Shown here piece by piece: positions 13,911 through 54,190 of a stretch of DNA of 64,000 nt. Below the pieces are notes generated by a model. It saw only the letters and a list, made by a program, of their open reading frames with translations. It was not told where the DNA came from and ran no database searches. Source of the stretch: Chloroflexi bacterium HGW-Chloroflexi-2 (GTDB lineage: Bacteria; Chloroflexota; Anaerolineae; Anaerolineales; Anaerolineaceae); the NCBI GenBank assembly GCA_002840735.1, contig PHBY01000008.1, positions 350,648 through 414,647 of the forward strand. Reading direction: 5' to 3'. Position 1 is the stretch's first letter. Each line of letters opens with the position of its first letter. Both the position numbers and the translations under genes were made by a program.

Positions 13911-13911
13911 T

Positions 13912-28745: not shown

Positions 28746-30352
28746 TGATTCAAAAGTTAAAGCAGATCAAAGCCGGTGTTCGCCAACGCTGGATTCATAA
28801 TGCTAATGATCAGCGCCTGGCGAAACTGGCGAACGAAATCAAAAAGCAATCAACATTGAACAACCAGCAGCCTGTGGTTTTTATGGGTGTGTCAACTCGC
28901 CTGCAAGGAATGAGTTTGAACGCTGGATTTGCTTTGATCACGAGATGGAGTCTTCAATTACAGGGAGTACCTGTTATACAGTTTGTTTGTGATGCCGGGA
29001 TGGATCAATGTATGTTAGGAAGCATTCTAAAACAACCTTTAGATCGCCCTCCCTGCACAATCTGCATCAGACAATCAAAGCGTATGTATAAACATTCGGA
29101 AGTTGCCTGGTTCAGGAATCAATCTTCATTGGAAATTAAAAAACAAATTTCTGATTTTTCGATCCAACAATTATCAGATTACAAATTTGATGATATTCCA
29201 TTTGGAGAGTTGGTATTACCTGCTATTCGTTGGGTTTTGCGTTGTTATCATTTACCAGACAATGAAGAGACCAAAACATTGTTCAGAAATTACATTCTTG
29301 CCGCGGAAAGCATTGCCTCTCAGTTTCTCAGATTACTGGAGAAAGAAAAACCACAAAAAGTAGTTGTGTTTAATGGCATGTCTTTCCCTGAAGCGACAGT
29401 CCGATGGTTAGCTCAAAAAAATAATATTCCCGTTGTCACGCATGAAGTTGGTCTGCAACCCTTCAGCGCTTACTTTACCTACGATCAGGCAACTGCTTAT
29501 CCGATTAAAATAGCAAAGAATTTTTCACTCAATCAAAATCAGAATAATATTCTGGACCAATACCTTGAACAAAGATTTCAAGGCAATTTCACCATGGCAG
29601 GTGTACGCTTTTGGCCTACCATGCGAACCTTAAGTGATTCATTTATTAAATTATCATCCTCATTTAAACAAATTGTTCCAATCTTTACCAATGTAATTTT
29701 TGATACAAGCCAATCGCATGCGAATGTGATATTTGAGCATATGTTTGATTGGCTGGATCAGGTTCTGACCATTATCCAAAAAAATCCAGATACGTTATTT
29801 GTCATTCGTGCTCATCCCGATGAAGCCAGACCTGGAAAAGCCAGCCGTGAATCGGTAGCTGAGTGGGCAAAACTTAACCGGGTAGATGCTCTGGAAAATG
29901 TTGTTTTTGTTGATGCAACTGAATACTTCAGCTCTTATGATCTGATTCAAAAATCAAAATTCGTGATGATTTATAATTCTACGATAGGATTGGAAGCTAC
30001 CTTATTGGGTGTTCCTGTTTTATGTGCCGGCAAATCACGTTTTACACAGATTGAGACTGTTTATTTTCCAAAAACACGCAATGAATATATCCGCACGTTT
30101 GAAGAATTCTTAGTAGCACCGGATGTGGAATTACCTGAACTATTTATTGAAAACACAAGAAAATTCATGTATACCCAGTTGTATCGGGTATCTCTGCCAT
30201 TTGAGCAATTTTTGGAAGAAGATCGAGTTTGGAAAGGGTATGTTCAATTAAAAGATTTTAATTGGCAAGACCTTCTGCCTGAAAATTCTGAGCCTTTACG
30301 AATTATTTCAGAAGGGATTTTAAAAGATATTGCTTTCGAATTGGAAAGATGA
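28745..30352 (+). CDS. GT-B capsule-type glycosyltransferase, orphan
   Basis: Of 535 residues, start overlapping the NeuB stop (TAATG). N-terminal block with two Cys pairs (VCDAGMDQCML and PPCTICIRQ), then VVVFNGMSFPEATVRWLAQ, and a C-terminal Rossmann part with IFTNVIFDTSQSH, LFVIRAHPDEARPGKAS, MIYNSTIGLEATLLGVPVL. R-x-H-P plus NST-x-x-x-E-x-x-x-x-G-x-P is the capsule-synthesis donor-site pattern. PPCTIC is unusual and could bind metal. Position between the NulO synthase and the third cytidylyltransferase makes a CMP-sugar donor plausible. Confidence 0.66.
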   Translation: MIQKLKQIKAGVRQRWIHNANDQRLAKLANEIKKQSTLNNQQPVVFMGVSTRLQGMSLNAGFALITRWSLQLQGVPVIQFVCDAGMDQCMLGSILKQPLDRPPCTICIRQSKRMYKHSEVAWFRNQSSLEIKKQISDFSIQQLSDYKFDDIPFGELVLPAIRWVLRCYHLPDNEETKTLFRNYILAAESIASQFLRLLEKEKPQKVVVFNGMSFPEATVRWLAQKNNIPVVTHEVGLQPFSAYFTYDQATAYPIKIAKNFSLNQNQNNILDQYLEQRFQGNFTMAGVRFWPTMRTLSDSFIKLSSSFKQIVPIFTNVIFDTSQSHANVIFEHMFDWLDQVLTIIQKNPDTLFVIRAHPDEARPGKASRESVAEWAKLNRVDALENVVFVDATEYFSSYDLIQKSKFVMIYNSTIGLEATLLGVPVLCAGKSRFTQIETVYFPKTRNEYIRTFEEFLVAPDVELPELFIENTRKFMYTQLYRVSLPFEQFLEEDRVWKGYVQLKDFNWQDLLPENSEPLRIISEGILKDIAFELER

Positions 30353-39625: not shown

Positions 39626-40807
39626 TCAGATAACTCTTAATTTTTTCCCAACACGTTCGAATGCCTGCAGACAAAGGTCGAGATCTTCTTTTGTATGGGT
39701 TGCAGAAATCATAACACGGATTCTGGCTTTTCCTACAGGAACGGTTGGAAAACCTAAAGCCATCGCAAATACGCCTTCGTTGAATAATTCTTTACTGAAG
39801 TCTTTTGCTAATTTGGCATCCCCTAACATGACGGGGGTAATCGGTGTTTGAGATAATCCAGTATCAAACCCCAATTTCTTCATTTCTGCTTTGAAATAAT
39901 TTCCATTTTCCCATAAACGATCAACCAATTCAGTGGATTCCTCTAGAAGGTCAACTGCGGTTAGACAGGCGGCCACATCAGCTGGTGTTAATGCAGATGA
40001 AAAGATGAAGGGTCGGCCACGTTGTCGAATCCATTCGATTAATTTTGCATTGCCTGCAACCATTCCTCCCATCACCCCGAAGGCTTTCGACATCGTACCG
40101 ACCTCAATATCCACTTTTCCATGTAAGCCAAAGTGATCCACGATGCCACGTCCGCCTTTGCCAACAACACCTTCTCCATGAGCATCATCAACCATTAACA
40201 TAACATCGTACTTGCTGGTGACTTCATAAATCTTGTCTAATGGTGCCAAATCACCGTCCATACTGAATACACCATCCGTAATGGCTAATAATCTGCGATA
40301 TTTTTCTTTGTTTTCTAAGATTTTTGTTTCTAAATCTTCAGCACTAGCATGATTGAAGCGGATGATGGTCGCACCGGATAATCGGCAGCCGTCGATAATG
40401 GAAGCATGGTTCAGTTCATCCGAGAGGATGCCATCTTCTTTACCAACGAGGCAGGGGATGGTCGCCAGATTGGCCGTAAAACCTGATTGGAAGGATATGC
40501 AGGCTTCCACACCCTTGAATTGAGCCAAACGACTTTCTAATTCCAGATGCACATCCATGGTTCCAGCGATGGACCGAACAGCTCCAGGTCCAACTCCATA
40601 TTCATCTACAACTTTCTTGACAGCTGCTACCATTTTTGGATGATTCGCCAGCCCTAAGTAGTTATTCGAACAGAAATTTAAGACTTTCTTTCCATCCACA
40701 ATCAACCATGCGCCCTGAGGAGAACTGATGGTGCGTATCTGATTGTATAATCCATTATCCTTTAAGGATAGAATCTCTTCTTCTGCCCAGACTAATCGAT
40801 TTGACAT
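39626..40807 (-). CDS. kbl: Glycine C-acetyltransferase / BioF-family PLP enzyme
   Basis: Of 393 residues, alpha-oxoamine synthase family. [14 protein letters not shown], the [11 protein letters not shown] block, [29 protein letters not shown] and the PLP lysine in [12 protein letters not shown] (K241). Kbl combines glycine and acetyl-CoA to 2-amino-3-ketobutyrate; BioF uses alanine and pimeloyl-CoA. Kbl is preferred because of the GVMGGMVAG and [13 protein letters not shown] wording and absence of other bio genes, but no threonine dehydrogenase is adjacent. RBS AGAGG lies 5 bases before the start. Same strand as the next upstream gene. Confidence 0.82.
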
Positions 40808-40930
40808 GTAAACCTCTTTTCAGGTGAAATCAAATTTGATAATTAGATTATATCCGAAGCATGTTGTAGCCCATGGTTACAAAAAACATGTTTTATATGG
40901 AATATTGTTGATATTTCCACTGCTATTCTT

Positions 40931-42628
40931 TTATTCACTTAAATACCCCATTTCGATTAATGTTTTTCGAACCTGCTCGACTCCGTTTGGAAGCACAGCA
41001 ACTGTATTTGGATTAAGAATTGCTTGGATGAATTTCTTTGCAGAAGTGTTTTGTAATTGATTGATTGCTTCTGGGTCTGCAAGATGTAAAAGGATTGCCT
41101 GGGTGAAGTGAGCCTGCGTTCCGTGATGCTCCCAATTCTCCAAAGCAGACTTTAATTTGGGCGGAAATGGATGAGGAAGAACAGATTGGACAATTTTCAG
41201 AAAGTGACTGATTTTTAATCCCTGATCCTTTGCGCGTTGCAACGAAACAGGTGATATTTGAAAAGCATAACCATCTTTGGACTTCCCGTTCCAGTCGCAA
41301 AACCTGGATATCTGATATCTTATTGATCTTGAAAACCTCAACGGGATGACAATTTTTCCGTATGAATCAATCAGGAGTTTGACATCTTCTGGTTTAATGG
41401 CATCAGGTGGATGGTTGGATAACAAATTTGCATACCATTGCGAACATTTAAAAGCCTGGATTTTGTTATCACTTTCGCTGCAAGCCAGGTCAACCAATCC
41501 CAACCAGAATAATGGCCCCGTGAGCATGAAACGAATATAAGCACCGTCAATGACATCCCAATGCTCAAAGCCACGCAAATATTCACCTGTTTCAGCCTTC
41601 TTGATATACCACGTGTCATAATTTCCGGCTGGGCGTTGAAAATCAGGATTGATCTGAAAAACATAGGACACGAAACTTTCGAGATTCCACCATTGTCCGG
41701 ATGGTACCAGGGAGATTTGATCCAGAAGGAATTGGCGGACATTGTGGTGATTGCGATCAAGCACGCCTTCAATGATAAAATCCGGCATTAATTCCATTTC
41801 GTTTAATTGCTTACTTTCAATCCAATGATTGGTAAGCATCATTAATGATTTTTCACGAGAAGTTTCTAAGAAATTTCGTACTTGATCAGGATCCAATATC
41901 CCCTTGTCTGAAATTAATTTTATGTCAAAAATAAGTTTATTTAAAAAATCGGTAGGAATATCACAATATTCATGAAGAATGTCAATCGAAAACCCATTTC
42001 GGATCGCAGCTAATAGGGTGCAAATATCATCCAGAATTCTATCGGAAGCAGTAAAAATGATTTGAGTTTCTTTGGTTGTGGCAGAACGACCAGGTATTTG
42101 TTTTTTCTGTATATAGGCAGGCTCCAGGCAAGAAAATATTTCTTCCGGGATATAAGCAAATTCCTGAGGTTCTGTTTCTGTGCTTAAAAATGCCCGCCCT
42201 ATGAAGGCTCTATACCAAAGATATTCAGTTGGTGTTTTTGGATTTAGGTCTGGTCTTTCACGATCTCTCCTAGCTGACCCCATAACCTGGATTTCTCCAA
42301 AATCACGAGCAAATTTTGCCCAGGGAATTTTTCCATCGTTATCTAACAGGGTATCAAAGGCTTGACGAACATTTTCTGGAAAAACTTCATAAATTTCTTT
42401 AATGATCTCTGGATTATTCATTTCCATTGCTAATTGAGTCCTGGCGGTATAAGCATCAGGAGCTTTGATTTCTATACCCCATGCATTGGCAACGATCTTT
42501 AAGAATCCCAAATCTTGACCATTTAATGAACTGACAATATTTAGCATTGAAATAATCTCATCCTTTATTCGGTCGTACTGAATATCACAACTGAAAAAAT
42601 TATACAGGAGATTTCCTGACTGATGCAT
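40931..42628 (-). CDS. Helicase-associated (XPB/Ssl2 N-terminal-like) protein without helicase
   Basis: Of 565 residues, apparently soluble. The C-terminal 100 residues show the pattern I know from XPB/Ssl2-type helicase-associated domains (Helicase_C_3-like): FQISPVSLQRAKDQGLKISH, LKSALENWEHHGTQAHFTQA, ILLHLADPEAINQL, KKFIQAILNPNTVAVLP and ending IEMGYLSE. In other bacteria this region stands before a superfamily-2 helicase; here no Walker motif is present, so the gene lacks the motor. The first 450 residues have a helical character and no known motif. Divergent from the DUF4388 operon across 100 bp. Confidence 0.65.
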   Translation of the reverse strand: MHQSGNLLYNFFSCDIQYDRIKDEIISMLNIVSSLNGQDLGFLKIVANAWGIEIKAPDAYTARTQLAMEMNNPEIIKEIYEVFPENVRQAFDTLLDNDGKIPWAKFARDFGEIQVMGSARRDRERPDLNPKTPTEYLWYRAFIGRAFLSTETEPQEFAYIPEEIFSCLEPAYIQKKQIPGRSATTKETQIIFTASDRILDDICTLLAAIRNGFSIDILHEYCDIPTDFLNKLIFDIKLISDKGILDPDQVRNFLETSREKSLMMLTNHWIESKQLNEMELMPDFIIEGVLDRNHHNVRQFLLDQISLVPSGQWWNLESFVSYVFQINPDFQRPAGNYDTWYIKKAETGEYLRGFEHWDVIDGAYIRFMLTGPLFWLGLVDLACSESDNKIQAFKCSQWYANLLSNHPPDAIKPEDVKLLIDSYGKIVIPLRFSRSIRYQISRFCDWNGKSKDGYAFQISPVSLQRAKDQGLKISHFLKIVQSVLPHPFPPKLKSALENWEHHGTQAHFTQAILLHLADPEAINQLQNTSAKKFIQAILNPNTVAVLPNGVEQVRKTLIEMGYLSE

Positions 42629-42668: not shown

Positions 42669-42697
42669 TTGACTTACATGCTGCTTACTTGTATAAT
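42669..42697 (+). promoter_or_regulatory. Sigma-70 promoter of the GTPase operon
   Basis: TTGACT (42669-42674), spacer of 17, TATAAT (42692-42697); predicted start about 42704, 26 bases before the ATG at 42730. Confidence 0.8.
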
Positions 42698-42729: not shown

Positions 42730-43545
42730 ATGGCCTTAAAAGGTAACCTGCGCGACTTTACGATCACCCAATTATTGAATCTTGTTAATCTTGCCTGCAA
42801 AACGGGTACCCTGGTTGTCGAGGGTCCTGCAGATGTAGCCAAGATTACTTTTCGTGAAGGAAAGTTGATCTATGCCCAGTTGGATCATCAGGACAATTCC
42901 TTGGCAGGAATATTAAGAAGAAGCAAAAAAATTAGCTCTCGCCAGTATTCCATCCTCTCTGAACGGGCAGCCAATATGAATGATAAAGAGCTTGGCATCT
43001 TATTAATTAATGCCGGGTATCTAAGTCAGTATGACATTATTGAAAGTTTACAACAGTACTTCGTAGGTATCGTTCGCCAGTTATTCACCTGGGTAGAAGG
43101 TGTTTTCAATTTCGAAGTAAATACATTGCAGCCTTCTGATAAAATTCCGATCCGTATGGATCTTGAAAACCTGATCATAGAAGGATCAAGACAGTTAAGA
43201 GAGTGGGAACAATTACAACAGGAAATTCCTTCCCTGGATATGTCTTTAAAATTTAGTGATCGACCTGGAATCAATATCAGAAATGTAAATCTTAGCGTGG
43301 AAGAATGGCGGGTGGTTTATTACGTAAATCCCAAAAATACTATGCGTCAGATTGCGAAAGCAACAAAATTGAATGATTTGGAGATCAGACGAATAGTGTA
43401 TTCTTTACTGCAGGCTGGTTTAGTTGAAGTAATCCGACCTGGAGAACGGACCGTTGCATTACCCCCGAGAGCATTCCCAAAAACGAACAAAACAGAACAG
43501 AAATCATTGATTAATCGAATTATCGATAGAATTCGTTCAATTTGA
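42730..43545 (+). CDS. DUF4388 (PATAN) signalling protein
   Basis: Of 271 residues. Residues 1-110 are a DUF4388/PATAN domain: MALKGNLRDFTITQLLNLV, GTLVVEGPADVAKITFREGK (the strand-turn hallmark) and LIYAQLDHQDNSLAGIL. Residues about 195-250 form a winged-helix-like region (LSVEEWRVVYYVNPKNTMRQ ... LNDLEIRRIVYSLLQAGLVE) and the tail is basic. PATAN proteins act in two-component and GTPase signalling as adaptors. It is the first gene of the GTPase operon, which suggests a partner or regulator of that GTPase. Confidence 0.82.
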   Translation: MALKGNLRDFTITQLLNLVNLACKTGTLVVEGPADVAKITFREGKLIYAQLDHQDNSLAGILRRSKKISSRQYSILSERAANMNDKELGILLINAGYLSQYDIIESLQQYFVGIVRQLFTWVEGVFNFEVNTLQPSDKIPIRMDLENLIIEGSRQLREWEQLQQEIPSLDMSLKFSDRPGINIRNVNLSVEEWRVVYYVNPKNTMRQIAKATKLNDLEIRRIVYSLLQAGLVEVIRPGERTVALPPRAFPKTNKTEQKSLINRIIDRIRSI

Positions 43546-43558
43546 AAACAGGTAATTT

Positions 43559-44092
43559 ATGCAGACGGTAAAAATTGTAGTAACAGGCCCATTCAGTTCA
43601 GGAAAAACAGAATTTATCCAGTCTATCAGTGAAATTGATGTCGTTTCCACGGAACGAAAAATATCCCTTGAATCGGAGAAAATCAAGAATGCTACTACAG
43701 TTGCCATGGATTTTGGGCGGATCACAATTGATAAAGAATTAGTGCTTTATATGTTTGGAACACCAGGTCAAAGAAGATTTGATTTCATGTGGGAAATTCT
43801 TTCAGAAGGCATGCTGGGCTTTATCGTAATGGTGGATAGTGCCCGTCCGGAGACATTTCGAGAGGCACGCTACATTCTGGAAACGTTTCGCGCATATGCA
43901 CCAACTCCCTATGTGGTAACTGCCAACAAACAAGATTTGGATGATGCATGGGATCTTGAAGACATGCGTTTTGCATTAAGGTTGGATCCAAAAATTAAAC
44001 TTTTACCCTGTGTGGCACATGATAAAAACTCGGTTAAGAAGGTTCTTCTCGAATTACTTTATACCATTTTAGCCGAGATGGAGGCAAAATAG
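43559..44092 (+). CDS. Small Ras-like GTPase, TPGQ type
   Basis: Of 177 residues. G1 GPFSSGKT (10-17), switch I Thr about 46-47 followed by AMDFGRI, G3 as FGTPGQ (66-71) in place of DxxGQ, and G4 NKQD (123-126). TPGQ GTPases are prokaryotic relatives of MglA and of the streptomycete CvnD proteins and commonly sit by MglB/roadblock or DUF4388 partners. No roadblock gene is here. It probably cycles in a membrane-linked or polar signalling complex. It begins 13 bases after the DUF4388 gene. Confidence 0.88.
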   Translation: MQTVKIVVTGPFSSGKTEFIQSISEIDVVSTERKISLESEKIKNATTVAMDFGRITIDKELVLYMFGTPGQRRFDFMWEILSEGMLGFIVMVDSARPETFREARYILETFRAYAPTPYVVTANKQDLDDAWDLEDMRFALRLDPKIKLLPCVAHDKNSVKKVLLELLYTILAEMEAK

Positions 44093-44101
44093 TCTGCGCT
44101 G

Positions 44102-44893
44102 ATGTCGTCCATCACAACTGATAAAGGAATATTACATTACGAGGTTTTTGGTAAAGGGAGACCTGTAATTTTTTTGCATGGGTGGCTGGGTTCCTGGGGA
44201 CTCTGGCAGGAAACCATATCAGAGATCGGAAAAACAAATCGAGCTTATGCACTTGATTTTTGGGGATTTGGTGATTCCGACGATAAACTATCGTCTTACA
44301 ATGTGCAGGATTTTGTAGATCTGATCAGACAATTTATGGATCAATTAGGTATTCAAAAAGCTCCTCTCGTAGGACACAGTATGGGTGGGACAGTAAGTTT
44401 GATGGCGGCAATCAATGATCCAGACCGCATTCAAAAAGTGGCTGTGATCGGTTCACCAATTGAAGGAAAATCCCTGAGTTTCCCCTTAAGGTTGGCTGGC
44501 AAAAGAATTGTTGCAGAATTCTTATTTCGATACTTTGGTCTATTTCGTAAAACATTAAAAAAAATTTCTCCCATAATTTGTAATGACCCCCAATTTCCAG
44601 AAATTATTGATCATGATCTTTCAAGAACAAATCTGGAGTCTTTTCTCAACAGCATTCGTTCACTTAATCGGGTAGATTTGAGGATGGAACTCGATAAAAT
44701 CAAAATTCCGGTATTGGGAATGTATGGAAAACGTGATAATATAGTATCACCCGCTCAATATAAACCATTGCACCAAGGGATTCCACACGCACAGATTGAA
44801 ATTTTTTCAAAATCCGGTCACTTTATAATGCTTGAAGAACCGAAGTTATTTTTAAAACTAATCCATGAATTCATAAATCAGGAGACTGATTAA
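44102..44893 (+). CDS. Alpha/beta hydrolase, paralogue of the 53405 gene
   Basis: Of 263 residues, alpha/beta fold. VIFLHGWLGSWGLWQETI (oxyanion H-G), LDFWGFGDSD, nucleophile VGHSMGGT (S93), acid YGKRDN (D212) and base SGHFIML (H240): an intact triad. The cap region about 125-185 is medium length, as in esterases and lipases. Substrate unknown. Its N-terminal third is nearly the same as that of 53405, so the two arose by duplication and now sit on either side of the response-regulator and kinase block. Confidence 0.88.
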   Translation: MSSITTDKGILHYEVFGKGRPVIFLHGWLGSWGLWQETISEIGKTNRAYALDFWGFGDSDDKLSSYNVQDFVDLIRQFMDQLGIQKAPLVGHSMGGTVSLMAAINDPDRIQKVAVIGSPIEGKSLSFPLRLAGKRIVAEFLFRYFGLFRKTLKKISPIICNDPQFPEIIDHDLSRTNLESFLNSIRSLNRVDLRMELDKIKIPVLGMYGKRDNIVSPAQYKPLHQGIPHAQIEIFSKSGHFIMLEEPKLFLKLIHEFINQETD

Positions 44894-44896
44894 GAA

Positions 44897-45502
44897 ATGA
44901 CCTATCAATCAACTCTAAATTGCTCTGGTACGATGACTGACATATTACTGGAGGGGGTAAGAGAAACGATTGGAATACCAGAAAAAAACTTATTGGAAAG
45001 ATCCGCTTCTGTTTTTGAAAATTACATAAATTTCGACTCACACACTCAAGAAGAGTTATTTAATTTATTGGATAAAGCTCCTATTTTATTTGGAGAAAGA
45101 GGATCTTGTGGTATTGCTCATAGAATTGGTGAAGCAAGTTTTCGGTATTTTCTGAGGAAAAATGGTAAACAATATTCATTAACCGAGAATTCCTATCGAT
45201 TATTGAATTCTCAACAAAGAATCGTGTTCGGATTGAATCAGCTTACTGAATTTGCCCACCAGAACTGTGGCGCCTGCATTGAAATCAATCAGAATGAAAA
45301 TAGATGGTATTGGCAGGTATTCGCTAATGAATCTGTTCCCTATTGGAATCGCTTATACTCACCCTATACTTTTGGTTTATTGCGCGAATTTTTCACCTGG
45401 ACAAGTGGGGGCCGTTACTATCTCATGGAAGAGGAAACGAGCGATCCCGGTTCAGACATATTATTCCAGATAGCCATAAATAAAAAACCTCTAGGTAATT
45501 AA
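44897..45502 (+). CDS. V4R-like small-molecule-binding protein
   Basis: Of 201 residues. From about 60 on it follows the 4-vinyl-reductase (V4R) plan: PILFGERGSCGIAHRIGEAS, FRYFLRKNGKQYSL, then QNCGACIEINQNENRWYW, YSPYTFGLLREFFTWTSGG and a terminal YLMEEETSDPGSDILFQIAI that replaces the usual G-x-x-x-C-x-F-x-I end. V4R domains bind small hydrocarbon-like ligands and serve as sensors in other bacteria. It keeps Cys residues about 71, 124 and 127. It is 3 bases after the hydrolase, hinting that the ligand could be a product or substrate of that enzyme. Confidence 0.6.
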   Translation: MTYQSTLNCSGTMTDILLEGVRETIGIPEKNLLERSASVFENYINFDSHTQEELFNLLDKAPILFGERGSCGIAHRIGEASFRYFLRKNGKQYSLTENSYRLLNSQQRIVFGLNQLTEFAHQNCGACIEINQNENRWYWQVFANESVPYWNRLYSPYTFGLLREFFTWTSGGRYYLMEEETSDPGSDILFQIAINKKPLGN

Positions 45503-46767
45503 TGCTAGATTATCGAATTGTTCTGCGCTCTAACAGGCAGGTATTACCGTTTAATGAACCAGCCAGAGATCTGAGAATCCTGAATAAACCTTTATGGTTA
45601 ATTCAAAGAGATGCCCTGGCAGCATATACAAATCAGGAAATGGATATTTACCCTGGAGAGAAAATTCCAATAGAAAATAAATCCTGTGTCGTCTTTCGTG
45701 ATAATCTCTTTTTCGATGAGACTTTTGTCAAATCGTTTATCGAGCTCGCAAAAGAAAAAAATTGTGCTGTACGAGCGGCATTTACAATCGAAGATGCTGC
45801 TTTTAGAGAGCATTGCCTGCCATTATCAAGCTCCTATGAGAAAAAGGATGACCTCTATTTTTCTGATCTTTGGTATTACCCGAATGGTCCGGTGGATGAG
45901 GTTGAACCCTTAATTATGGATCTGCAGTCACAGGAGATTGGTTACTATCATGTACCAACTTACATGGCTTTTAATCAGGGTGATCTGGTTTACCAGGTTC
46001 CATTACAGAGCATGATTGCCATCGATTCCTGGGTGCATGTTTTCATTGCCGATTCGATATTTGGATTATTTGCCAGAGGTGCCCGATTTGAAATGCGCTT
46101 AAAGAATGATCCTAAATTTATGTTAAGCGTGTTATTCACATCCATGTATGAAGGCAAGCAATTGTTGACCTGTTCGAAATTGGTCACTGTTGGAAAAAAT
46201 TGTTCCATCGACCCCAGTGCAGTTATTCATGGACCGACAACCATAGGCGATAATGTTACGATTGGTGCCGGGGTAGTCATTGAAAATTGTATTATTGGCA
46301 ATAATGTCAATATTTCTCAGGGGTGCAATTTAATGCTGTCTGTGATTGGTGATGGGACTTTTCTTCCTTTTCGTGCATCCCTCTTTATGACCACTTTAAT
46401 GGATAATAGCATGGTTGCTCAAAATACCTGTCTTCAGATGAGTGTTGTCGGACGTAATTCATTTGTTGGTGCTGGCACCACATTTACAGATTTCAATTTA
46501 TTGCCGGTCGAATTACGGGCGAGAGGTGTAAATGGCGAGTTGGAAAATTCAAATCGACCGGTTTTAGGGGGTTGTGTAGGACACAATTGTCGGATTGGAT
46601 CTGGACTTGTCATTTATCCAGCCAGAATGATAGAGTCGGATGTGGTATTGATCAGTTCGAATGATAGGCGGGTGATCGATCACGATATTACTTATGAAGA
46701 AAGTGATCACCACAAATTAAAACAATCTGACCTTCACCGTCAATTCTATCCTAGAGAAAATCAATAA
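45502..46767 (+). CDS. Left-handed beta-helix (hexapeptide) protein, GlmU-like layout
   Basis: Of 421 residues, starting in the last codon of the V4R gene. The N-terminal 210 residues are unlike standard nucleotidyltransferases though they begin with YRIVLRSNRQVLPFNEPARD. Residues about 230-390 carry hexapeptide repeats: VGKNCSIDPSAVIHGPTTIG, DNVTIGAGVVIENCIIGNNV, VGRNSFVGAGTTFTDFN and VGHNCRIGSGLVIYPARMIE. This suggests a sugar-phosphate or lipid acyl/nucleotidyl transferase scaffold. It ends the operon begun at 42730. The match to GlmU is in general shape only. Confidence 0.7.
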   Translation: MLDYRIVLRSNRQVLPFNEPARDLRILNKPLWLIQRDALAAYTNQEMDIYPGEKIPIENKSCVVFRDNLFFDETFVKSFIELAKEKNCAVRAAFTIEDAAFREHCLPLSSSYEKKDDLYFSDLWYYPNGPVDEVEPLIMDLQSQEIGYYHVPTYMAFNQGDLVYQVPLQSMIAIDSWVHVFIADSIFGLFARGARFEMRLKNDPKFMLSVLFTSMYEGKQLLTCSKLVTVGKNCSIDPSAVIHGPTTIGDNVTIGAGVVIENCIIGNNVNISQGCNLMLSVIGDGTFLPFRASLFMTTLMDNSMVAQNTCLQMSVVGRNSFVGAGTTFTDFNLLPVELRARGVNGELENSNRPVLGGCVGHNCRIGSGLVIYPARMIESDVVLISSNDRRVIDHDITYEESDHHKLKQSDLHRQFYPRENQ

Positions 46768-46941: not shown

Positions 46942-47838
46942 ATGAGTAAAGGTCGCCTATTGGTTGTTGAAGATGATCATGATATTTCGAATATGTTGAG
47001 TATTTATTTTTCAGGGCTTGGGTATGATGTAGATATCGCTCCTCGTGGAGAAGTAGCCCTTGATAAAACCAGACAATTAATGCCCCATTTAATTATCTTG
47101 GATATCATGCTGCCTGATATCGATGGTTATGAAGTGTGTCGCCGTTTGAGAATTAACACGCGCACGAGTCACATTCCAATTATTTTCTTAACACAAAAGG
47201 ATGAGCGCAGCGATAAATTACAGGGATTGGAATTGGGGGCAGATGATTACATTACGAAGCCGTTTGATATTGAAGAATTGCGCTTACGAGTTCAAAATGC
47301 AATTGCCAGAGCAGAAAGAGAAAGCCTGACAGATGCCCAATCGGGGTTACCTTCCGGAAGATTAATTGAAGATCAATTGCGAAAAATCATTCGCGAGAAA
47401 AATTGGTCATTATTCGATATTCGCATCAACCATTTGGAGCCATTCAAAGAGGTTTATGGATTTATTGCAGCCAATGATGTTTTGCGGTTCACGGGCATGT
47501 TTTTAGGAGACGTTTTGGATGAAGTTGGCACCCAGGATTATGATTTTATCGGCCACGCAGGCGGTGATAATTTTGTATTGATTTCAGATTTCAGCCCATC
47601 ACAAAAGTTATTTACCTTTCTCAAAGAAAAATTTGCTGAAACCATCAAAACTCATTACAACTTTATAGATCGAGATCAAGGCTACCTGACAGTCCATGAT
47701 GAAAAAGGTGTTCCGAGTAAAGCTCCATTAATGACGTTATCCATTGGCATGGTATCACCCAATACCCATCAATTTGCAGATATCCGCGAAATCACAGAAT
47801 TAGCTGCTGAAGAACGAAGAAATGATGATCAGAAATAA
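46942..47838 (+). CDS. Response regulator with degenerate GGDEF domain
   Basis: Of 298 residues. Receiver domain 1-120: VVEDDHD (E10, D11, D12), phosphoacceptor D54 in LIILDIMLPD, LTQKD and ITKPFD. Residues about 130-290 follow the GGDEF plan (LTDAQSGLPSGRLIEDQL, then DFIGHAGGDNFVLISDF at about 202-217) but the signature is GGDNF, losing the acidic residue for metal and cyclisation, so it is probably a binding or regulatory domain rather than a diguanylate cyclase. GGAGG precedes the start. Directly upstream of the kinase gene. Confidence 0.82.
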   Translation: MSKGRLLVVEDDHDISNMLSIYFSGLGYDVDIAPRGEVALDKTRQLMPHLIILDIMLPDIDGYEVCRRLRINTRTSHIPIIFLTQKDERSDKLQGLELGADDYITKPFDIEELRLRVQNAIARAERESLTDAQSGLPSGRLIEDQLRKIIREKNWSLFDIRINHLEPFKEVYGFIAANDVLRFTGMFLGDVLDEVGTQDYDFIGHAGGDNFVLISDFSPSQKLFTFLKEKFAETIKTHYNFIDRDQGYLTVHDEKGVPSKAPLMTLSIGMVSPNTHQFADIREITELAAEERRNDDQK

Positions 47839-47853
47839 ATTTGGATATATAGG

Positions 47854-50800
47854 GTGATTATTTATCTTTTCAGCAGCCTTATTACACTGGCGATTATTGG
47901 CATCCTATGGTTTTCAATTATGCCATTGATTAGATTTAAGCAGCAAGACAAAGATGCCAATACCGCTAAATTGGACGAAGAGATTGATTACTTACACCCA
48001 GTTTTATTGGTTGAAAAAGGGGGTAGGATAAAGTATCAAAGTTCAGGGATGACCGGTTTACTGGATCAAAAACAAGGGCAGAAATTTGATATAAACTTGC
48101 TAGCCCAAAAAGCGAATAACAAAGATTTTTATAAAATATTTACCCAACCCGGCAATTACAATTTTGAGTTAAATGGTGAAATGTATGCCATCTATAGTTA
48201 CCAGACATCTGACGGAATGTTGGTTTCGTTCATCAAAGACCAAAATCAAAATACTTATCGCTTCAGAGACGATGAAAATCCTGAATTTTCACTGAACATT
48301 TTGGAAAAAATTTCAAATAATGAAGAACTGGATCAAATTATTCTTATCTTATTTGAAGAAATACAAAAAAGACTTTCAGCTGATTATGTAGAGATCGCGA
48401 TTTGGGATGATGAAAAAGAAGAGATAATTTCCTATCCATTCCACAAATTTCGAAATATTGATTCTCAGGTATCCGCTAAACGGTATTTCGCGAATGAATG
48501 TTTTACCGGGCAGGTTGTTGAGAAAAAGGAAATAATTTATCTTGAAGACCTGAAAACCAGCCAATATACACTGTCTGAGGAAGTATTGGAATTTGATTTT
48601 CAAGAACTTTTAGGAATCCCTTTGTGGATCAACAATGTTGTCATTGGGGTGATGGCCTTGGGAAATACCGAATCGTTAGGAATCTCAAAAAAAGTACAGG
48701 AATTGGACCCTGGTTTTATCAATCAGATTTCAATTGGACTATATAACGCCTGGATGAACCATGAAGTAAAGCGGAAATCACTGGAGTTGAGCGGTTTAGC
48801 GAAATTATCCTACTCCTTCAGTAAAATTCAGGAACCACAGGAATTATTCAAAAATATAATATTTAGTTTTGAAAACCTGTTACCCATTGATATCTTTGGT
48901 TTTATCCTGTATGAGGAACAAACGAATATTCTGGAAGCCAAGAAACCATTCAAAGGTTTACCAGATCCAATCGTCGATATTATCCGAATCAATATCGATT
49001 CAGATAGCCCAGCGGGAAATATCCTGTTTTCCCAAGATATTTTGATCGTAGAGAATGCGATGGACAACCAGAAATGGTCTGACCTTGGTTTATCTCATCT
49101 TGCCAGTGCGGCATCCATTCGGGAAGCTGTGTTGATCCCTTTGTCTCCAGGCAGTGAGCCTATGGGTTATATCCTGGCAGCCAATCACCATAATGGCGCA
49201 ACATCTTTTTCACAGGATGAAATGCATTTATTAATGATTGTTGCAAATCAAACGGCCCCCCTCATAGAAAATCTTTACCTGCTTATACAATCGAGACAAC
49301 GAACACAACGAGCAGAAACACTTCGAAGAATTTCATCCTTAGCCAGTTCAAATGCCACTTTGAGTGAAGTGTTAGCATTTTCTATCAATGAATTATCACT
49401 GTTGTTGCATGCTGATGTGGGTGGATTATTTCTGGTTGATCATGCCAGTATGCAAATGGACTGGAAACCGGATTCGAACTATGGTCATTGGCAACTTGAT
49501 CGTAGTGAAGGAGAATTATCTCTCTCCTCTTCAGATTTTCTTGGGACTGTTACCTATTTGAAAGAGCCTTTATTAATTGGGAAGTTTGACGAAACAAAAC
49601 CCATTCCAAACTTTTATCAAAATATTGTGGATCGATGTGATCTACAATCAGCCATTGTCGTTCCGTTGATTGTGAAAAACCAGGGCATTGGGGAAATTTG
49701 GTTTGGAAGTCATACGCTCAGCTTTTTTGATCAGGGTGATATTCAATTGATCCTTTCAGCAGCGAACCAATTGGCGTATGTAGTAGACCAGGCAAATTTA
49801 TCCATACGAACACTCGAAGCGATCAATGAAAAAATGGAACAGGATAAATTGATTGATGAATTAAAAAAAATCAATCAGTTTAGCCAAAAGATAACCAGCC
49901 TTCGACCAGAACTAATATTGAAAGAATTATTGGCAGTATTGATGGAATTTGTTCCGGCTGCAGATGCAGGATGGATTGGTTTGTGGAATGAACAAGATCA
50001 ATCTATCAAACCAGAACATTTTTACAACTATTCTGACAGCTTGTACGAAATTCAATTCATTCGCCCCAGTCTTCCGGTTGAAATTTGGGAACACCAAAAA
50101 ACAATTGTGTTGAATGATATGGATTTTCCTGTGAGCTACAGGATGACTGAATCAGAGGCGGTTCAATATTTACGTGCAACTCAAAATCAAATTCCGAACA
50201 CCTGCCTTCAAACACCATTGTTCTCATCCAATCAATGTATTGGTGTTCTGTTGTTGGAGATTTTCAATCAAGAGAAAACATTTTCTGATGAAGATGTATC
50301 GATCACTCTTTCTTTATTACAACAGGCCAATTTAGCATTAGCGAATGCTGATCTTTTCATTACCACGGAAAAGCAATCAGATCGATTAAAGATTCTTTCA
50401 GATCTTTCTAAATCCATTTCAGCCAGTTTAAATAGACAGGAGTTACAGGATTCATTATTGAATCAATTGAGACAGTTGATTGATTATGAAACTGCAACAT
50501 TGTGGGAAAAAGAGACGGACCATTTAAGAGTAATCGCAGCAGACGGATTTACTGATCGAGAGGACAGAACGGGCTTAAAAGTGCAAATCGATGATTCCCT
50601 GCTTTTTCAGGAGATGTTTAACACCAAAAAACCCGTTGTCATTGCGGATATAAGAGAAGATCTGCGTTTTCCGTCATTGATGGAAGTTGAAAATTTATCC
50701 TGGCTGGGTATTCCACTGATTTCGAAAATGGAAGTGATCGGAGTGATCGCCTTAGAGAAAAAAGAAAAGGGTTATTACAATGACGAACTGGTCCAATTGG

Positions 50801-53037
50801 CTGAAGCCTTTGCTTCTCAGGCAGCGATTGCTTTGGATAATGCCAGTTTGTATCAGGATTCGCTCAGAAGAGGCTCAGAACTTGATGAGCGAACTCAAAA
50901 ATTGACCTGGTTGAACCAGTTTTCATCTGAGGTAAATCGCTCGTTGGATATATCCCACATCCTACAGTTGACAACCGACTATGTGTCGAATGTTATTAAT
51001 TGTGAAATGATCACTGTCTTTTTAATCAGTGCAAATGGTGATTTTAAATTGTCATTTCAAAAACCAGCGTTCGAGAATTTTCCTAATTTAACCATTAATC
51101 AACTACCACTTTTCGAGAAATTAATTCAGTCACGCGGCGTATCCCACATTCAGGATATTACTGAAGAAAAAGAGATTGATGATTCACTCCAACTTTATTT
51201 TTCTCGGCGAGGAACAAAATCATTGTTATTAATTCCCTTGCACCGTTCAGACAAAGTGTTTGGCTGGATTGCATTGGAATCTCCAACATCAAGACGCTTT
51301 TTACATGATGAAACTGAATTGGCAATGACATTAGCCAATCAAGCCTCTATGGCGATTAATAATGCGTATTTACTGTCAGAGACTCTTGAATTGAAAGAGA
51401 ACCTGGAAGAAAGAGTGGATGAACGCACCAAAGAACTAGTGTTAGAGCATCGAAATACGGAGATGCTTCTAAAAATATCAAACGAACTCTCAGGTAGCAT
51501 GGATATCGATCAGATTCTGGATAGCACATTGAAGATGATAAATAATTTGATGAATGTGTCGGGTAGTCTGGTGTATGTTCTGGAAGGAAAGAAAACATTC
51601 CAGGCAATTCATCGACCAACCAATGATGAAACTGTGATTACACTTGATTCCGTAGAACCATTTTTCAATCAAGTATTTGCAGAGAAAAATTCAATTCTGG
51701 TTGAAGTTTCTTCCAAAGAAAATCTGACGATACCTTTTTCAAGCTGGATGTATATCCCATTAAAATTTGGGGAGTCGGTTTTGGGCATATTATCGATTTT
51801 CCATGAATCATCTGATTTCTTTACGAATCGGGATCGGGAATTGGGTGAAGCAATCGCGGGTCAGATTAGTATGGCTTTGAACAATGCTGAGATCTTTAAA
51901 TTAGTGCGTGATCAATCCGAAAATCTTGGATCAATGTTGCGAGATCAGGAAGTTGAAGCCAGTCGATCACAGGCAATTCTGGAAGCAGTTGCCGATGGTG
52001 TCCTGGTTACCGGTGTCCAAGCGGAGATTATGCTCTTAAACAAATCTGCCAAAAACATTTTGAGGATAAAAGAAAATGTGATCGATCTGTCATTACAGGG
52101 ATTGAAGACTTATTATGGAGACAAAATTAATCATTGGATTTCAACGATTTTTGATTGGACAAATCAGCCATCAAAAAACAAGTCGGATGTAGTAATTTCT
52201 GAAAAAATTAACTTAAATAAAAATCAAGTTATTTCGGTGCATCTATCACCTGTTATTTGGCGTAATGACTTTTTGGGCACAGTCTCTGTTTTTAGAGATA
52301 TCTCTGTCGAAGTACAGATTGACCAGCTGAAGACTGATTTTATTTCCAATATAAGCCATGAGTTACGTACGCCAATGACATCCATCAAAGGGTATGTAGA
52401 AGTTTTACTGATGGGCGCATCAGGGATGATCAATGAACAACAGAAGCACTTTTTAGAGATTATTCAATCAAACACAAACCGATTAAAATCACTGGTGGAT
52501 GATATTCTGGATGTTTCCAGGATAGAATCCGGAAATATCATTCTTAGACCAGAATCATTCGATCTGCTATCAAAAATAAAAGATATTGTCGAAATTCACA
52601 AAAATTCCACAATGATAGATTCAAAACAAATCTCTTATCGAATCAATCCAATCGGAATAGTTCCACCTATCATTGCTGACCCGGAAAGAATTGAACAGGT
52701 GCTATTAAATATTCTCAATAACGCCAGAATATATTCGTATGACCAAAGTGTAATAACAATTTCAGTAGAATCCCTGGGGGGATTTGTCAAAATTGCGGTT
52801 GCAGATCTTGGAGTAGGGATAGCCAGGGATGAACAGGACCATATTTTTGAAAGATTCTTCCGGGGTAAAAATGCAATTAATCTGAATTCTGCAGGAACAG
52901 GCTTAGGTTTGTCAATTGCGCGTACGATCATTGAAATGCATGGAGGAAACATAAAAATGGAATCATCTGGCATTCCAGGAGAAGGATCAACATTCACAAT
53001 TATGATCCCCATTAAACTAGAAAAGGTTAATGCTTAA
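47854..53037 (+). CDS. 1727-residue hybrid-input histidine kinase with seven GAF domains
   Basis: GTG start. Order: one membrane helix (3-25); PAS-like region (45-130); GAF-like domains at about 150-300, 310-475, 485-650, 665-835, 845-1000, 1020-1170 and 1195-1345; a PAS domain (1370-1490); HisKA with SHELRTP, phosphoacceptor H1502; and HATPase_c to the end with ILNNARIY (N box), DLGVGIARDEQ (G1), FERFFRG (F) and GTGLGLSIA (G2). A coiled stretch (ELKENLEERVDERTKELVLE) precedes the last GAF. Seven tandem GAFs suggest integration of many small-molecule or redox cues. No periplasmic sensor is visible. Response regulators lie on both sides. Confidence 0.88.
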   Translation: MIIYLFSSLITLAIIGILWFSIMPLIRFKQQDKDANTAKLDEEIDYLHPVLLVEKGGRIKYQSSGMTGLLDQKQGQKFDINLLAQKANNKDFYKIFTQPGNYNFELNGEMYAIYSYQTSDGMLVSFIKDQNQNTYRFRDDENPEFSLNILEKISNNEELDQIILILFEEIQKRLSADYVEIAIWDDEKEEIISYPFHKFRNIDSQVSAKRYFANECFTGQVVEKKEIIYLEDLKTSQYTLSEEVLEFDFQELLGIPLWINNVVIGVMALGNTESLGISKKVQELDPGFINQISIGLYNAWMNHEVKRKSLELSGLAKLSYSFSKIQEPQELFKNIIFSFENLLPIDIFGFILYEEQTNILEAKKPFKGLPDPIVDIIRINIDSDSPAGNILFSQDILIVENAMDNQKWSDLGLSHLASAASIREAVLIPLSPGSEPMGYILAANHHNGATSFSQDEMHLLMIVANQTAPLIENLYLLIQSRQRTQRAETLRRISSLASSNATLSEVLAFSINELSLLLHADVGGLFLVDHASMQMDWKPDSNYGHWQLDRSEGELSLSSSDFLGTVTYLKEPLLIGKFDETKPIPNFYQNIVDRCDLQSAIVVPLIVKNQGIGEIWFGSHTLSFFDQGDIQLILSAANQLAYVVDQANLSIRTLEAINEKMEQDKLIDELKKINQFSQKITSLRPELILKELLAVLMEFVPAADAGWIGLWNEQDQSIKPEHFYNYSDSLYEIQFIRPSLPVEIWEHQKTIVLNDMDFPVSYRMTESEAVQYLRATQNQIPNTCLQTPLFSSNQCIGVLLLEIFNQEKTFSDEDVSITLSLLQQANLALANADLFITTEKQSDRLKILSDLSKSISASLNRQELQDSLLNQLRQLIDYETATLWEKETDHLRVIAADGFTDREDRTGLKVQIDDSLLFQEMFNTKKPVVIADIREDLRFPSLMEVENLSWLGIPLISKMEVIGVIALEKKEKGYYNDELVQLAEAFASQAAIALDNASLYQDSLRRGSELDERTQKLTWLNQFSSEVNRSLDISHILQLTTDYVSNVINCEMITVFLISANGDFKLSFQKPAFENFPNLTINQLPLFEKLIQSRGVSHIQDITEEKEIDDSLQLYFSRRGTKSLLLIPLHRSDKVFGWIALESPTSRRFLHDETELAMTLANQASMAINNAYLLSETLELKENLEERVDERTKELVLEHRNTEMLLKISNELSGSMDIDQILDSTLKMINNLMNVSGSLVYVLEGKKTFQAIHRPTNDETVITLDSVEPFFNQVFAEKNSILVEVSSKENLTIPFSSWMYIPLKFGESVLGILSIFHESSDFFTNRDRELGEAIAGQISMALNNAEIFKLVRDQSENLGSMLRDQEVEASRSQAILEAVADGVLVTGVQAEIMLLNKSAKNILRIKENVIDLSLQGLKTYYGDKINHWISTIFDWTNQPSKNKSDVVISEKINLNKNQVISVHLSPVIWRNDFLGTVSVFRDISVEVQIDQLKTDFISNISHELRTPMTSIKGYVEVLLMGASGMINEQQKHFLEIIQSNTNRLKSLVDDILDVSRIESGNIILRPESFDLLSKIKDIVEIHKNSTMIDSKQISYRINPIGIVPPIIADPERIEQVLLNILNNARIYSYDQSVITISVESLGGFVKIAVADLGVGIARDEQDHIFERFFRGKNAINLNSAGTGLGLSIARTIIEMHGGNIKMESSGIPGEGSTFTIMIPIKLEKVNA

Positions 53038-53408
53038 TGTCAAAAATACTGGTTGCTGAAGATGAACAGGATATTCGAGATCTGATCGAATTTACCCTAA
53101 AATATGTTGGGCATGAAGTTGTTTGTGTTTCTAATGGAGAAGAAGCATGCCACATGGCAAAGAAAATCATGCCAGAGCTAATTGTATTGGACGTGCGTAT
53201 GCCTGTCATGTCTGGATATGAAGCCTGTGAAATCATAAAAAACGATCCGAAAACCAAACATATACCGATCGTATTTCTTTCCGCCAAAGGGCAGGATTCG
53301 GAAATTAAGGCTGGTTTGCAAGCAGGAGCCGTGGATTATTTATTGAAGCCATTTGCGCCGGATGACCTTAACAGACGGTTAAAAGAGATTCTTGACGGGG
53401 TTGCATGA
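53037..53408 (+). CDS. Single-domain response regulator
   Basis: Of 123 residues, ATG sharing a base with the kinase stop. Receiver only: VAEDEQD (acid pair E8, D9), D52 in LIVLDVRMP, VFLSAKG and LLKPFAPDD. No output domain, so it would work by protein contact or as a phosphotransfer partner of the kinase. It overlaps the next hydrolase start (ATGA), which ties the hydrolase to this circuit. Confidence 0.9.
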   Translation: MSKILVAEDEQDIRDLIEFTLKYVGHEVVCVSNGEEACHMAKKIMPELIVLDVRMPVMSGYEACEIIKNDPKTKHIPIVFLSAKGQDSEIKAGLQAGAVDYLLKPFAPDDLNRRLKEILDGVA

Positions 53409-54190
53409 GTGCGATATTCATTGATGGTCAATTAGCCCATTATGAAGTGATTGGACGTGGGGAACCTGTTTTATTTTTACATGGTTGGGTTGGCTCCTGG
53501 CGGTATTGGGTTCCGACCATGCAAACGATCTCATCTACGAACAGAACCTATGCGCTTGATTTATGGGGCTTTGGGGATAGTGCAAAGAACAATCAATACA
53601 CTATTAAAGACCAGGTCGCATTTGTGATGGCGTTTATTGAAAAAATTGGACTATCCCGCGTTTCGGTTGTAGGTCATAGCCTTGGTGCCATTGTGGCATA
53701 TGAATTTGCACTGCTTAATCCTGAACTGGTAGAGAAAATATTATCTATTGCTTTGCCCTTATCCTATGATTCTCTTAATACACGTTTACTATTAGGAGAT
53801 CATATTGGGCTTGTTGATAAATTATTGGGAAAAGGCATCGAAACAGAGGCTGTAAGAAGCGACGAATCCAAGAACGATCCAATTGCGATACAATCAACAA
53901 TTGCAGAACTTGAAAAGACTAACCAACTTGGAAAGATTGATTCCTTTGATAAAACCTCCTTATTAGTCTTTGGTCAAAATGATACTGTCGTCCGGATCCC
54001 ATCTTTGGAAATTATTCAATCTCTTCGGTCGAATATCCACACTATTATCTTTGAAGAGTCGGGGCACTTCCCAATGCTGGATGAGAGTAGTAAGTTTTCA
54101 AGGCTTCTGAGTGAATTTCTGGAATTAGGAGAGGATGATTCTCCCCGAAATTTACAAACCAAAGAAAAATGGCAGCGACGCGTAAGATAG
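53405..54190 (+). CDS. Alpha/beta hydrolase, paralogue of the 44102 gene
   Basis: Of 261 residues. VLFLHGWVGSWRYWVPTM, LDLWGFGDSA, nucleophile VGHSLGAI (S92), acid FGQNDTV (D193), base SGHFPML (H221). The N-terminal third closely matches the 44102 protein; the region 125-175 and the C-terminal tail (SPRNLQTKEKW) differ and the tail is basic. Overlap with the regulator gene argues for co-expression. Same fold and triad, so the substrates may be related. Confidence 0.88.
   Translation: MSAIFIDGQLAHYEVIGRGEPVLFLHGWVGSWRYWVPTMQTISSTNRTYALDLWGFGDSAKNNQYTIKDQVAFVMAFIEKIGLSRVSVVGHSLGAIVAYEFALLNPELVEKILSIALPLSYDSLNTRLLLGDHIGLVDKLLGKGIETEAVRSDESKNDPIAIQSTIAELEKTNQLGKIDSFDKTSLLVFGQNDTVVRIPSLEIIQSLRSNIHTIIFEESGHFPMLDESSKFSRLLSEFLELGEDDSPRNLQTKEKWQRRVR

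Follow-up and report, generated by a model that had tools for sequence, protein, structure and literature searches.

A putative MglA-family GTPase operon with a V4R-fold protein in Anaerolineae and its Roadblock counterpart elsewhere in the genome

We analysed a window of 64,000 nucleotides (nt) that is part of the 4.1 Mb genome (G000) of an Anaerolineae-type bacterium, Chloroflexi bacterium HGW-Chloroflexi-2, and that contains a run of five genes around a small GTPase of the MglA family. The original prediction had placed genes for a DUF4388 protein, a GTPase, a hydrolase, a V4R protein and a beta-helix protein in one operon, and all five open reading frames (ORFs) were found on the forward strand at the predicted coordinates. 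They encode a DUF4388 protein of 271 amino acids (aa) with a weak winged-helix-like C-terminal part (42730..43545; PF14332, 7.2e-24), the small GTPase of 177 aa (43559..44092), an alpha/beta hydrolase of 263 aa with a GHSMGG nucleophile elbow (44102..44893; PF00561, 2.5e-31), a V4R-fold protein of 201 aa that has lost five family cysteines (44897..45502; hereafter V4R no. 1) and a protein of 421 aa that combines a nucleotidyltransferase-like part with a left-handed hexapeptide beta-helix (LbH; 45502..46767; PF00132, 3.7e-15). Because the intergenic gaps in this run measure 13, 9 and 3 nt and are followed by a 1-nt stop/start overlap, the five genes are very likely co-transcribed as one operon; coordinates, tight spacing and Pfam domains all bear out the predicted grouping of the DUF4388, GTPase, hydrolase and beta-helix genes. 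A candidate sigma-70-like promoter, TTGACT-17-TATAAT (42669..42697, forward strand), is the best such site in the region, agrees with the consensus at 11 of 12 positions as a consensus match only and ends 32 nt before the first ATG. Overall, sigma-70-like sites were no commoner than in shuffled sequences (12 found, mean of 14.7 in shuffles, sd 4.5).

After the LbH gene, a gap of 174 nt separates the operon from further genes on the same strand. These encode a response regulator with a receiver domain (PF00072, 8.6e-28) and a degenerate GGDEF domain (GGDNF by eye; 6.4e-4, below the cut-off; 46942..47838), a histidine kinase with seven GAF stretches by profile matches (47854..53037), a single-domain CheY-like receiver (53037..53408; an ORF annotated by reading only) and a second alpha/beta hydrolase (53405..54190), for which all NCBIfam hydrolase models scored below their cut-offs. 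The cluster thus contains two hydrolases, the second of which follows the kinase and receiver genes. Divergent to the operon lies a pair of reverse-strand genes (39626-42628), one for an acyltransferase of the BioF/Kbl type and one for a protein of 565 aa whose C-terminal part is weakly helicase-like; this pair stands beside the operon in only some loci, mainly from the same family.

The DUF4388 protein passes the curated score of PF14332 by a wide margin (84.6 bits, cut-off 25) and is the only such match in the genome at E<=0.001; DUF4388 is presumably the PATAN domain. Helix-turn-helix families matched residues 188-237 of this protein below their own cut-offs. The window GTPase matched PF03029 (9e-20) and Ras (5e-9), and at E<=0.01 no other protein of this kind was matched in the genome. 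We compared it with the nearest 80 of at least 574 confirmed relatives, several of which come from the same genomes as those numbered G below; because only the nearest were kept, all counts from these loci lean towards the window. The nearest named loci among these best 80 belong to Anaerolineaceae and other Anaerolineales, and MglA loci of the cultured relatives Anaerolinea thermolimosa, Bellilinea caldifistulae and Longilinea arvoryzae are included. All 80 GTPases carry GTPGQ as G3, in place of DxxGQ, TT(V/I)A.DFGR, in which a threonine stands next to the G2 threonine where group 1 has its arginine finger, and NKQD, a G4 of the [NT]KxD type, and 76 of the 80 share the P-loop pattern TGPF(S/N)(S/A)GKT. 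Against solved structures, the GTPase profile matched the Rab protein Sec4 (9e-11) better than MglA (2.4e-8). The available text of PMC4316618 assigns a GTPGQ G3 and TT in G2 to MglA groups 2-5 and a G4 of this type to groups 1, 4 and 5. Judged by its motifs, the window GTPase is an MglA-family switch protein of the GTPGQ type, and together with the phyla listed in that source the motifs suggest membership of group 5.

After one of two loci from the same contig had been dropped, 79 GTPase loci were available for the comparison of gene order. The DUF4388/PATAN gene lies directly upstream of the MglA gene in 74 of the 75 loci with enough sequence, in agreement with the predicted pairing of a PATAN adaptor with a switch GTPase. 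Where at least 6 kb of downstream sequence was present (n = 58), the hydrolase, V4R, LbH and regulator genes were found within 6 kb in 46, 39, 46 and 45 loci, respectively, and the full order GTPase-hydrolase-V4R-LbH-response regulator occurred in 33. Hence the gene order is not unique to this genome, and chance clustering was rejected. In Levilinea saccharolytica, contig_12 carries the operon twice, in inverted copies that are separated by about 11 kb and match with equal scores (L100/L101, L037); they stem from a recent duplication or from an artefact of the assembly.

MglA proteins commonly work with a Roadblock partner, and the genome holds a single detected Roadblock/LC7 (MglB-like) match, located on contig C19, apart from the MglA operon. 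There, a cluster on one strand has the order Roadblock, a second V4R gene (V4R no. 2), response regulator, glycosyltransferase. The regulator is related to the one that follows the window operon (36% identical over most of its length), and the models nearest to the glycosyltransferase are polyprenyl-phosphate glycosyltransferases, far below their cut-offs. In some relatives the two clusters are joined: L034 (G043) and L045 (G056) show the order Roadblock - V4R - regulator - glycosyltransferase - PATAN - MglA - hydrolase - V4R - LbH - regulator - kinase, and both halves are also joined in L081, L082, L137 and L089, the last of which is probably the same record as L045. The joined cassette of L082 reads Roadblock-V4R-response regulator-glycosyltransferase-PATAN-MglA-V4R-response regulator-kinase, without hydrolase or LbH. 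In total, a Roadblock gene was present in the available flank of 8 of the 79 GTPase loci (L089 included), and a V4R gene adjoins each one.

A further joined arrangement comes from outside the window's class. In L204 (G068), a same-strand run has the order PATAN - MglA - Roadblock - Roadblock - V4R - LbH - hydrolase - Roadblock, and every member scored above a Pfam cut-off except V4R (E 4e-6, 27.2 bits, cut-off 31). The Roadblock protein encoded directly after MglA in this run (13766-14167, reverse strand) is divergent and is additional to two others; we take it to be reminiscent of MglC beside MglB. As for V4R genes without such partners, one of the four V4R matches in G000, that on contig C9 (L052), has no profiled partner within 10 kb and serves as a control. 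On C19, a fragment resembling V4R (28901-29218, reverse strand), whose match is interrupted by a stop, is possibly a decayed copy.

We then surveyed 61 genomes including G000, calling V4R with the profile A3 at E<=1e-8. MglA, Roadblock and V4R were found in 51, 49 and 54 genomes, respectively. Both MglA and Roadblock occurred in 49 genomes, MglA only in two (G024 and G029, the latter 64% complete), Roadblock only in none, and neither in 10, and V4R was present in all 49 Roadblock genomes. In 42 of the 49 genomes a V4R gene comes directly after Roadblock on the same strand, at a distance of at most 400 nt; in 38 of 51 one is found no further than 1.6 kb from MglA, and in 47 of 51 one stands beside one or the other partner. 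At the level of single genes, 81 of the 129 V4R matches, some of which are fragments of one gene, adjoin Roadblock or MglA. MglA and Roadblock are thus present or absent together, and V4R follows them less strictly. In L068 (G013), a PATAN gene lies next to V4R with neither MglA nor Roadblock matched in the genome, which is either a remnant or a GTPase-free variant.

We also examined a sample of 201 genomes of the phylum; from outside Chloroflexota, the analysis covered 14 control genomes. All 38 genomes of the phylum sample with MglA (E<=1e-20) have Roadblock. From the window's class, 27 genomes were listed, and a single set of 18 of them carries MglA as well as Roadblock. Roadblock-V4R was found in 17 of these 18, and the remaining genome, G137, has PATAN-MglA-V4R. 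Considering the best Roadblock match of each of 30 genomes, among the matches listed, 16 loci have V4R beside Roadblock, and the misses are mostly from other classes. In L267, Roadblock lies next to MglA.

The V4R assignment itself required particular care. The window protein had no match to the V4R family PF02830 at E<=1 and stayed below the curated score. Within the family alignment of 34 members, which includes the window protein and one row (L068) that adjoins PATAN without a GTPase, 18 match PF02830 at E<=0.1 (best 2.6e-13). The window protein also matched V4R no. 2 at 1.9e-6, and this paralogue passes the V4R curated cut-off (37.1 bits, cut-off 31). By sequence, the V4R profile finds solved V4R structures weakly (MJ1460, E 0.12; PoxR, 0.33). 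An AlphaFold2 model of V4R no. 1 built with 52 sequences reached a predicted local distance difference test score (pLDDT) of 88 and a predicted template modelling score (pTM) of 0.85. Fold comparison by Foldseek and VIA-align placed H-NOX closest in both, with Z values of up to 12.8 for H-NOX, 10.0 for Bet3-Trs31, 9.9-9.6 for TRAPPII-Rab11 subunits and 9.6 for archaeal TRAPPC3, and the V4R phenol sensor MopR was among the Foldseek matches (E 2.5e-3). Passages of PMC5847659 relate V4R, MetOD1 and the heme-NO-binding domain to each other, and V4R and Bet3 are related according to the accessible part of PMC2253512. The confident model therefore predicts an H-NOX/V4R/Bet3 fold for V4R no. 1.

H-NOX heme sensors thus have the closest fold. 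Unlike in H-NOX, no invariant or nearly invariant histidine was found in alignment A3, where the best histidine columns reach 63% (V4R no. 1) and 78% (V4R no. 2) at different positions; a heme sensor, which would need a conserved heme-ligating histidine, was therefore rejected. Five cysteine columns, which presumably form a zinc site of the PoxR/TRAPPC3 type, are conserved at 89-100% in 18 V4R no. 2 proteins and at 71-85% per column in 59 V4R no. 1 proteins. Because the window protein retains none of the five, we call it V4R-fold rather than a full member, and this loss probably explains the missing Pfam match. The original V4R call consequently stands for the family, by its profile matches, the paralogue and the predicted fold, and fails for the window protein in the profile search itself. 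Decay of the gene is not a convincing explanation, since the nonsynonymous rate (dN) of 0.075 against a synonymous rate (dS) of 0.335, in comparison with G001, points to purifying selection. In the V4R tree, V4R no. 1 proteins and the L204 protein form one clade (support 0.98); because the root is distant, the tree gives no time order for V4R no. 1 and no. 2.

Among the enzymes of the operon, the GHSxGG motif is kept in all 59 hydrolase orthologues examined. The LbH family is highly conserved, with a mean column identity of 75% in alignment A4 (27 sequences), in which a GxGTR-like nucleotidyltransferase signature was not seen by eye. The N-terminal part of the LbH protein gave a weak model (mean pLDDT 62) with sugar-1-phosphate nucleotidylyltransferases as best matches. 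An active sugar nucleotidyltransferase was rejected on the missing signature, and the model is too weak to settle the matter.

The best reading of these data is that the window operon represents the MglA half of a bipartite small-GTPase switch, whose Roadblock half lies elsewhere in the genome. The original prediction had missed both the MglA-family identity and this bipartite system with its Roadblock protein, second V4R protein and regulator at another locus. We consider it probable that two-component proteins are coupled to an MglA/MglB switch in this system and that a Bet3-like V4R protein acts as an additional regulator, for which both the contact and the ligand are inferred. By analogy with known MglA/MglB pairs, MglA would cycle between its GTP and GDP forms, with Roadblock as GTPase-activating protein or exchange partner. 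The histidine kinase and receiver proteins would feed signals into the switch. The V4R protein near each half would couple a ligand or the membrane to it. V4R and Bet3 biology suggests that V4R may bind a hydrophobic ligand, probably as a dimer; it might then either influence the balance of the GTPase cycle or hold the switch at the membrane, much as Bet3-type subunits do for the TRAPP exchange factor. PATAN would pass the output to an envelope process, and the hydrolase, the beta-helix protein and the glycosyltransferase may point to the cell envelope as the target.

A number of observations weigh against this reading. No V4R gene adjoins Roadblock in seven of the 49 Roadblock genomes (G006, G008, G037, G045, G046, G051 and G055), 13 of the 51 MglA genomes have none within 1.6 kb of MglA, in four of the 51 (G024, G029, G045 and G046) it stands beside neither partner, and V4R is also present in five of the 10 relatives without MglA, G013 being one of the five. 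Common descent is not taken into account in the Fisher p values (7e-10 for MglA-Roadblock), which are further favoured by the construction of A3 from both V4R types. In the phylum sample, 33 of the 71 Roadblock genomes lack such an MglA, and eight genomes outside the class (L250-L253, L257, L258, L266 and L267) have PATAN-MglA without V4R, LbH or an adjacent hydrolase in the stretch read. PATAN-MglA is therefore the wider core, and V4R, hydrolase and LbH look like an addition of Anaerolineae and G068. As for the protein itself, the best structural match of the model is H-NOX, ahead of Bet3, the window copy keeps 0 of the 5 family cysteines, and V4R no. 1 evolves far faster than MglA (dN 0.075 and 0.002, respectively, in comparison with G001), which is odd for a tight contact with MglA. 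Finally, in 10 loci hydrolase and LbH occur without V4R between them. Because L082, L091 and L093 conversely have PATAN-MglA-V4R without the hydrolase, the two genes are separable, and the proposal that V4R senses a product of the hydrolase is not supported as stated.

An alternative that we regard as unlikely is that V4R serves the two-component branch only, as a ligand sensor for the kinase and the receiver/GGDEF-like regulator, and is clustered with the GTPase because they belong to a common pathway. V4R is known from the sensor proteins PoxR and MopR, as the accessible part of PMC2253512 describes, and MopR is matched by the V4R no. 1 model. Regulators of the same type (36% identical) also occur in both the MglA and the Roadblock clusters. 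V4R no. 2 adjoins Roadblock as well as the regulator, so gene order there does not decide. On the MglA side, however, the LbH gene stands between V4R and the regulator. In L204, V4R lies within the Roadblock/MglA run and the regulator matches are weak (33 bits) and located before PATAN, and in L254 PATAN-MglA-V4R occurs with no such regulator matched in 20 kb.

A type IV pilus polarity module as in Myxococcus, in which MglA and PATAN would direct pilus ATPases at the cell pole, is very unlikely. In cyanobacteria there is a link between PATAN regulators and pili. For M. xanthus, such a role of MglA is described in the available text of PMC11580455. The genome yielded seven PF00437 matches, and the four that exceed the cut-off were scanned. 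All four come nearest to the model of the TadA family, without reaching its cut-off, and fall well short of PilB (53.5 vs 676 bits) and PilT (53.7 vs 319 bits). With no PilB/PilT-like ATPase among the four proteins scanned, type IVa pilus polarity was rejected for this genome, and a Tad-type pilus is a possible target. Also very unlikely is an operon for the biosynthesis of an envelope lipid or glycan that carries the GTPase as a passenger, and in which the hydrolase, LbH protein and glycosyltransferase make a product that V4R measures: all three are recurrent members and the LbH protein is strongly conserved (75% mean column identity), but the nearly invariant members are PATAN and MglA rather than the enzymes, and the LbH protein shows no nucleotidyltransferase signature by eye.

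The bipartite MglA switch resembles described MglA/MglB systems in its GTPGQ G3, in TT in G2 as in groups 2-5, in the Roadblock protein of the genome and in the nearby two-component genes (PMC4316618, available text). A PATAN neighbour is reported there 'occasionally' for MglA groups 1 and 5 (Wuichet and Sogaard-Andersen 2014, PMC4316618). The same source finds 390 of 449 MglA genes coupled to Roadblock within four genes, whereas here Roadblock usually lies in a separate cluster; V4R has 0 occurrences in its available text, and the hydrolase and LbH are unmentioned in the relevant sections. Actinobacterial conservons (CvnA-D) likewise combine a histidine kinase, a Roadblock protein, a small GTPase and a further conserved protein, as PMC4316618 describes; unlike in conservons, the further members here are PATAN, V4R, hydrolase and LbH, and the cassette is often split in two.

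In open-licence papers, we found no description of a pairing of V4R with MglA-Roadblock in bacteria, and V4R and MglA were found together in one paper, on Asgard archaea, as were V4R, TRAPP and small GTPases. In an appendix table of PMC8756737, consecutive entries for Anaerolinea thermolimosa are DUF4388, a GTPase, a hydrolase and glmU. The earlier statement that no system with this set had been described thus holds for the full set within open-licence papers and not for MglA with PATAN neighbours, which were reported in 2014 (PMC4316618, available text). The cassette is a real and conserved variant of MglA-type GTPase cassettes, undescribed in open-licence papers, in which the PATAN-MglA adjacency was already known and the feature that surprises most is the presence of V4R beside each half of the switch.

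This feature invites comparison with eukaryotic vesicle tethering. V4R proteins were proposed as ancestors of the TRAPP subunit Bet3 (Podar 2008, PMC2253512, in the part available), and the family described here shares with Bet3 the PF02830 matches, a Bet3-Trs31 fold match and the genetic link to a small GTPase and Roadblock. Unlike TRAPP Bet3, its model is better matched by H-NOX structures (Z 12.8), and the system is known from genes and a predicted fold. For the Asgard archaeon MK-D1, the available text of PMC10933270 reports that genes of small GTPases do not, as a rule, share operons with Roadblock, longin or TRAPPC3. We tentatively raise the possibility that, in Anaerolineae, V4R and Roadblock physically associate to regulate a Ras-like GTPase. 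They would then be the bacterial equivalent of the TRAPP core, where subunits of the Bet3 and longin types together drive Rab. If this were true, the link between V4R, Roadblock and a small GTPase would either predate vesicle tethering in eukaryotes or have arisen convergently with it.

The V4R family described here has ties to each half of a Ras-like switch throughout a bacterial order. Because the proteins are compact and apparently soluble, regulation of a Ras-like GTPase by V4R becomes testable at the bench, and the system would provide Anaerolineae, most of which are uncultured, with a defined switch for signalling.

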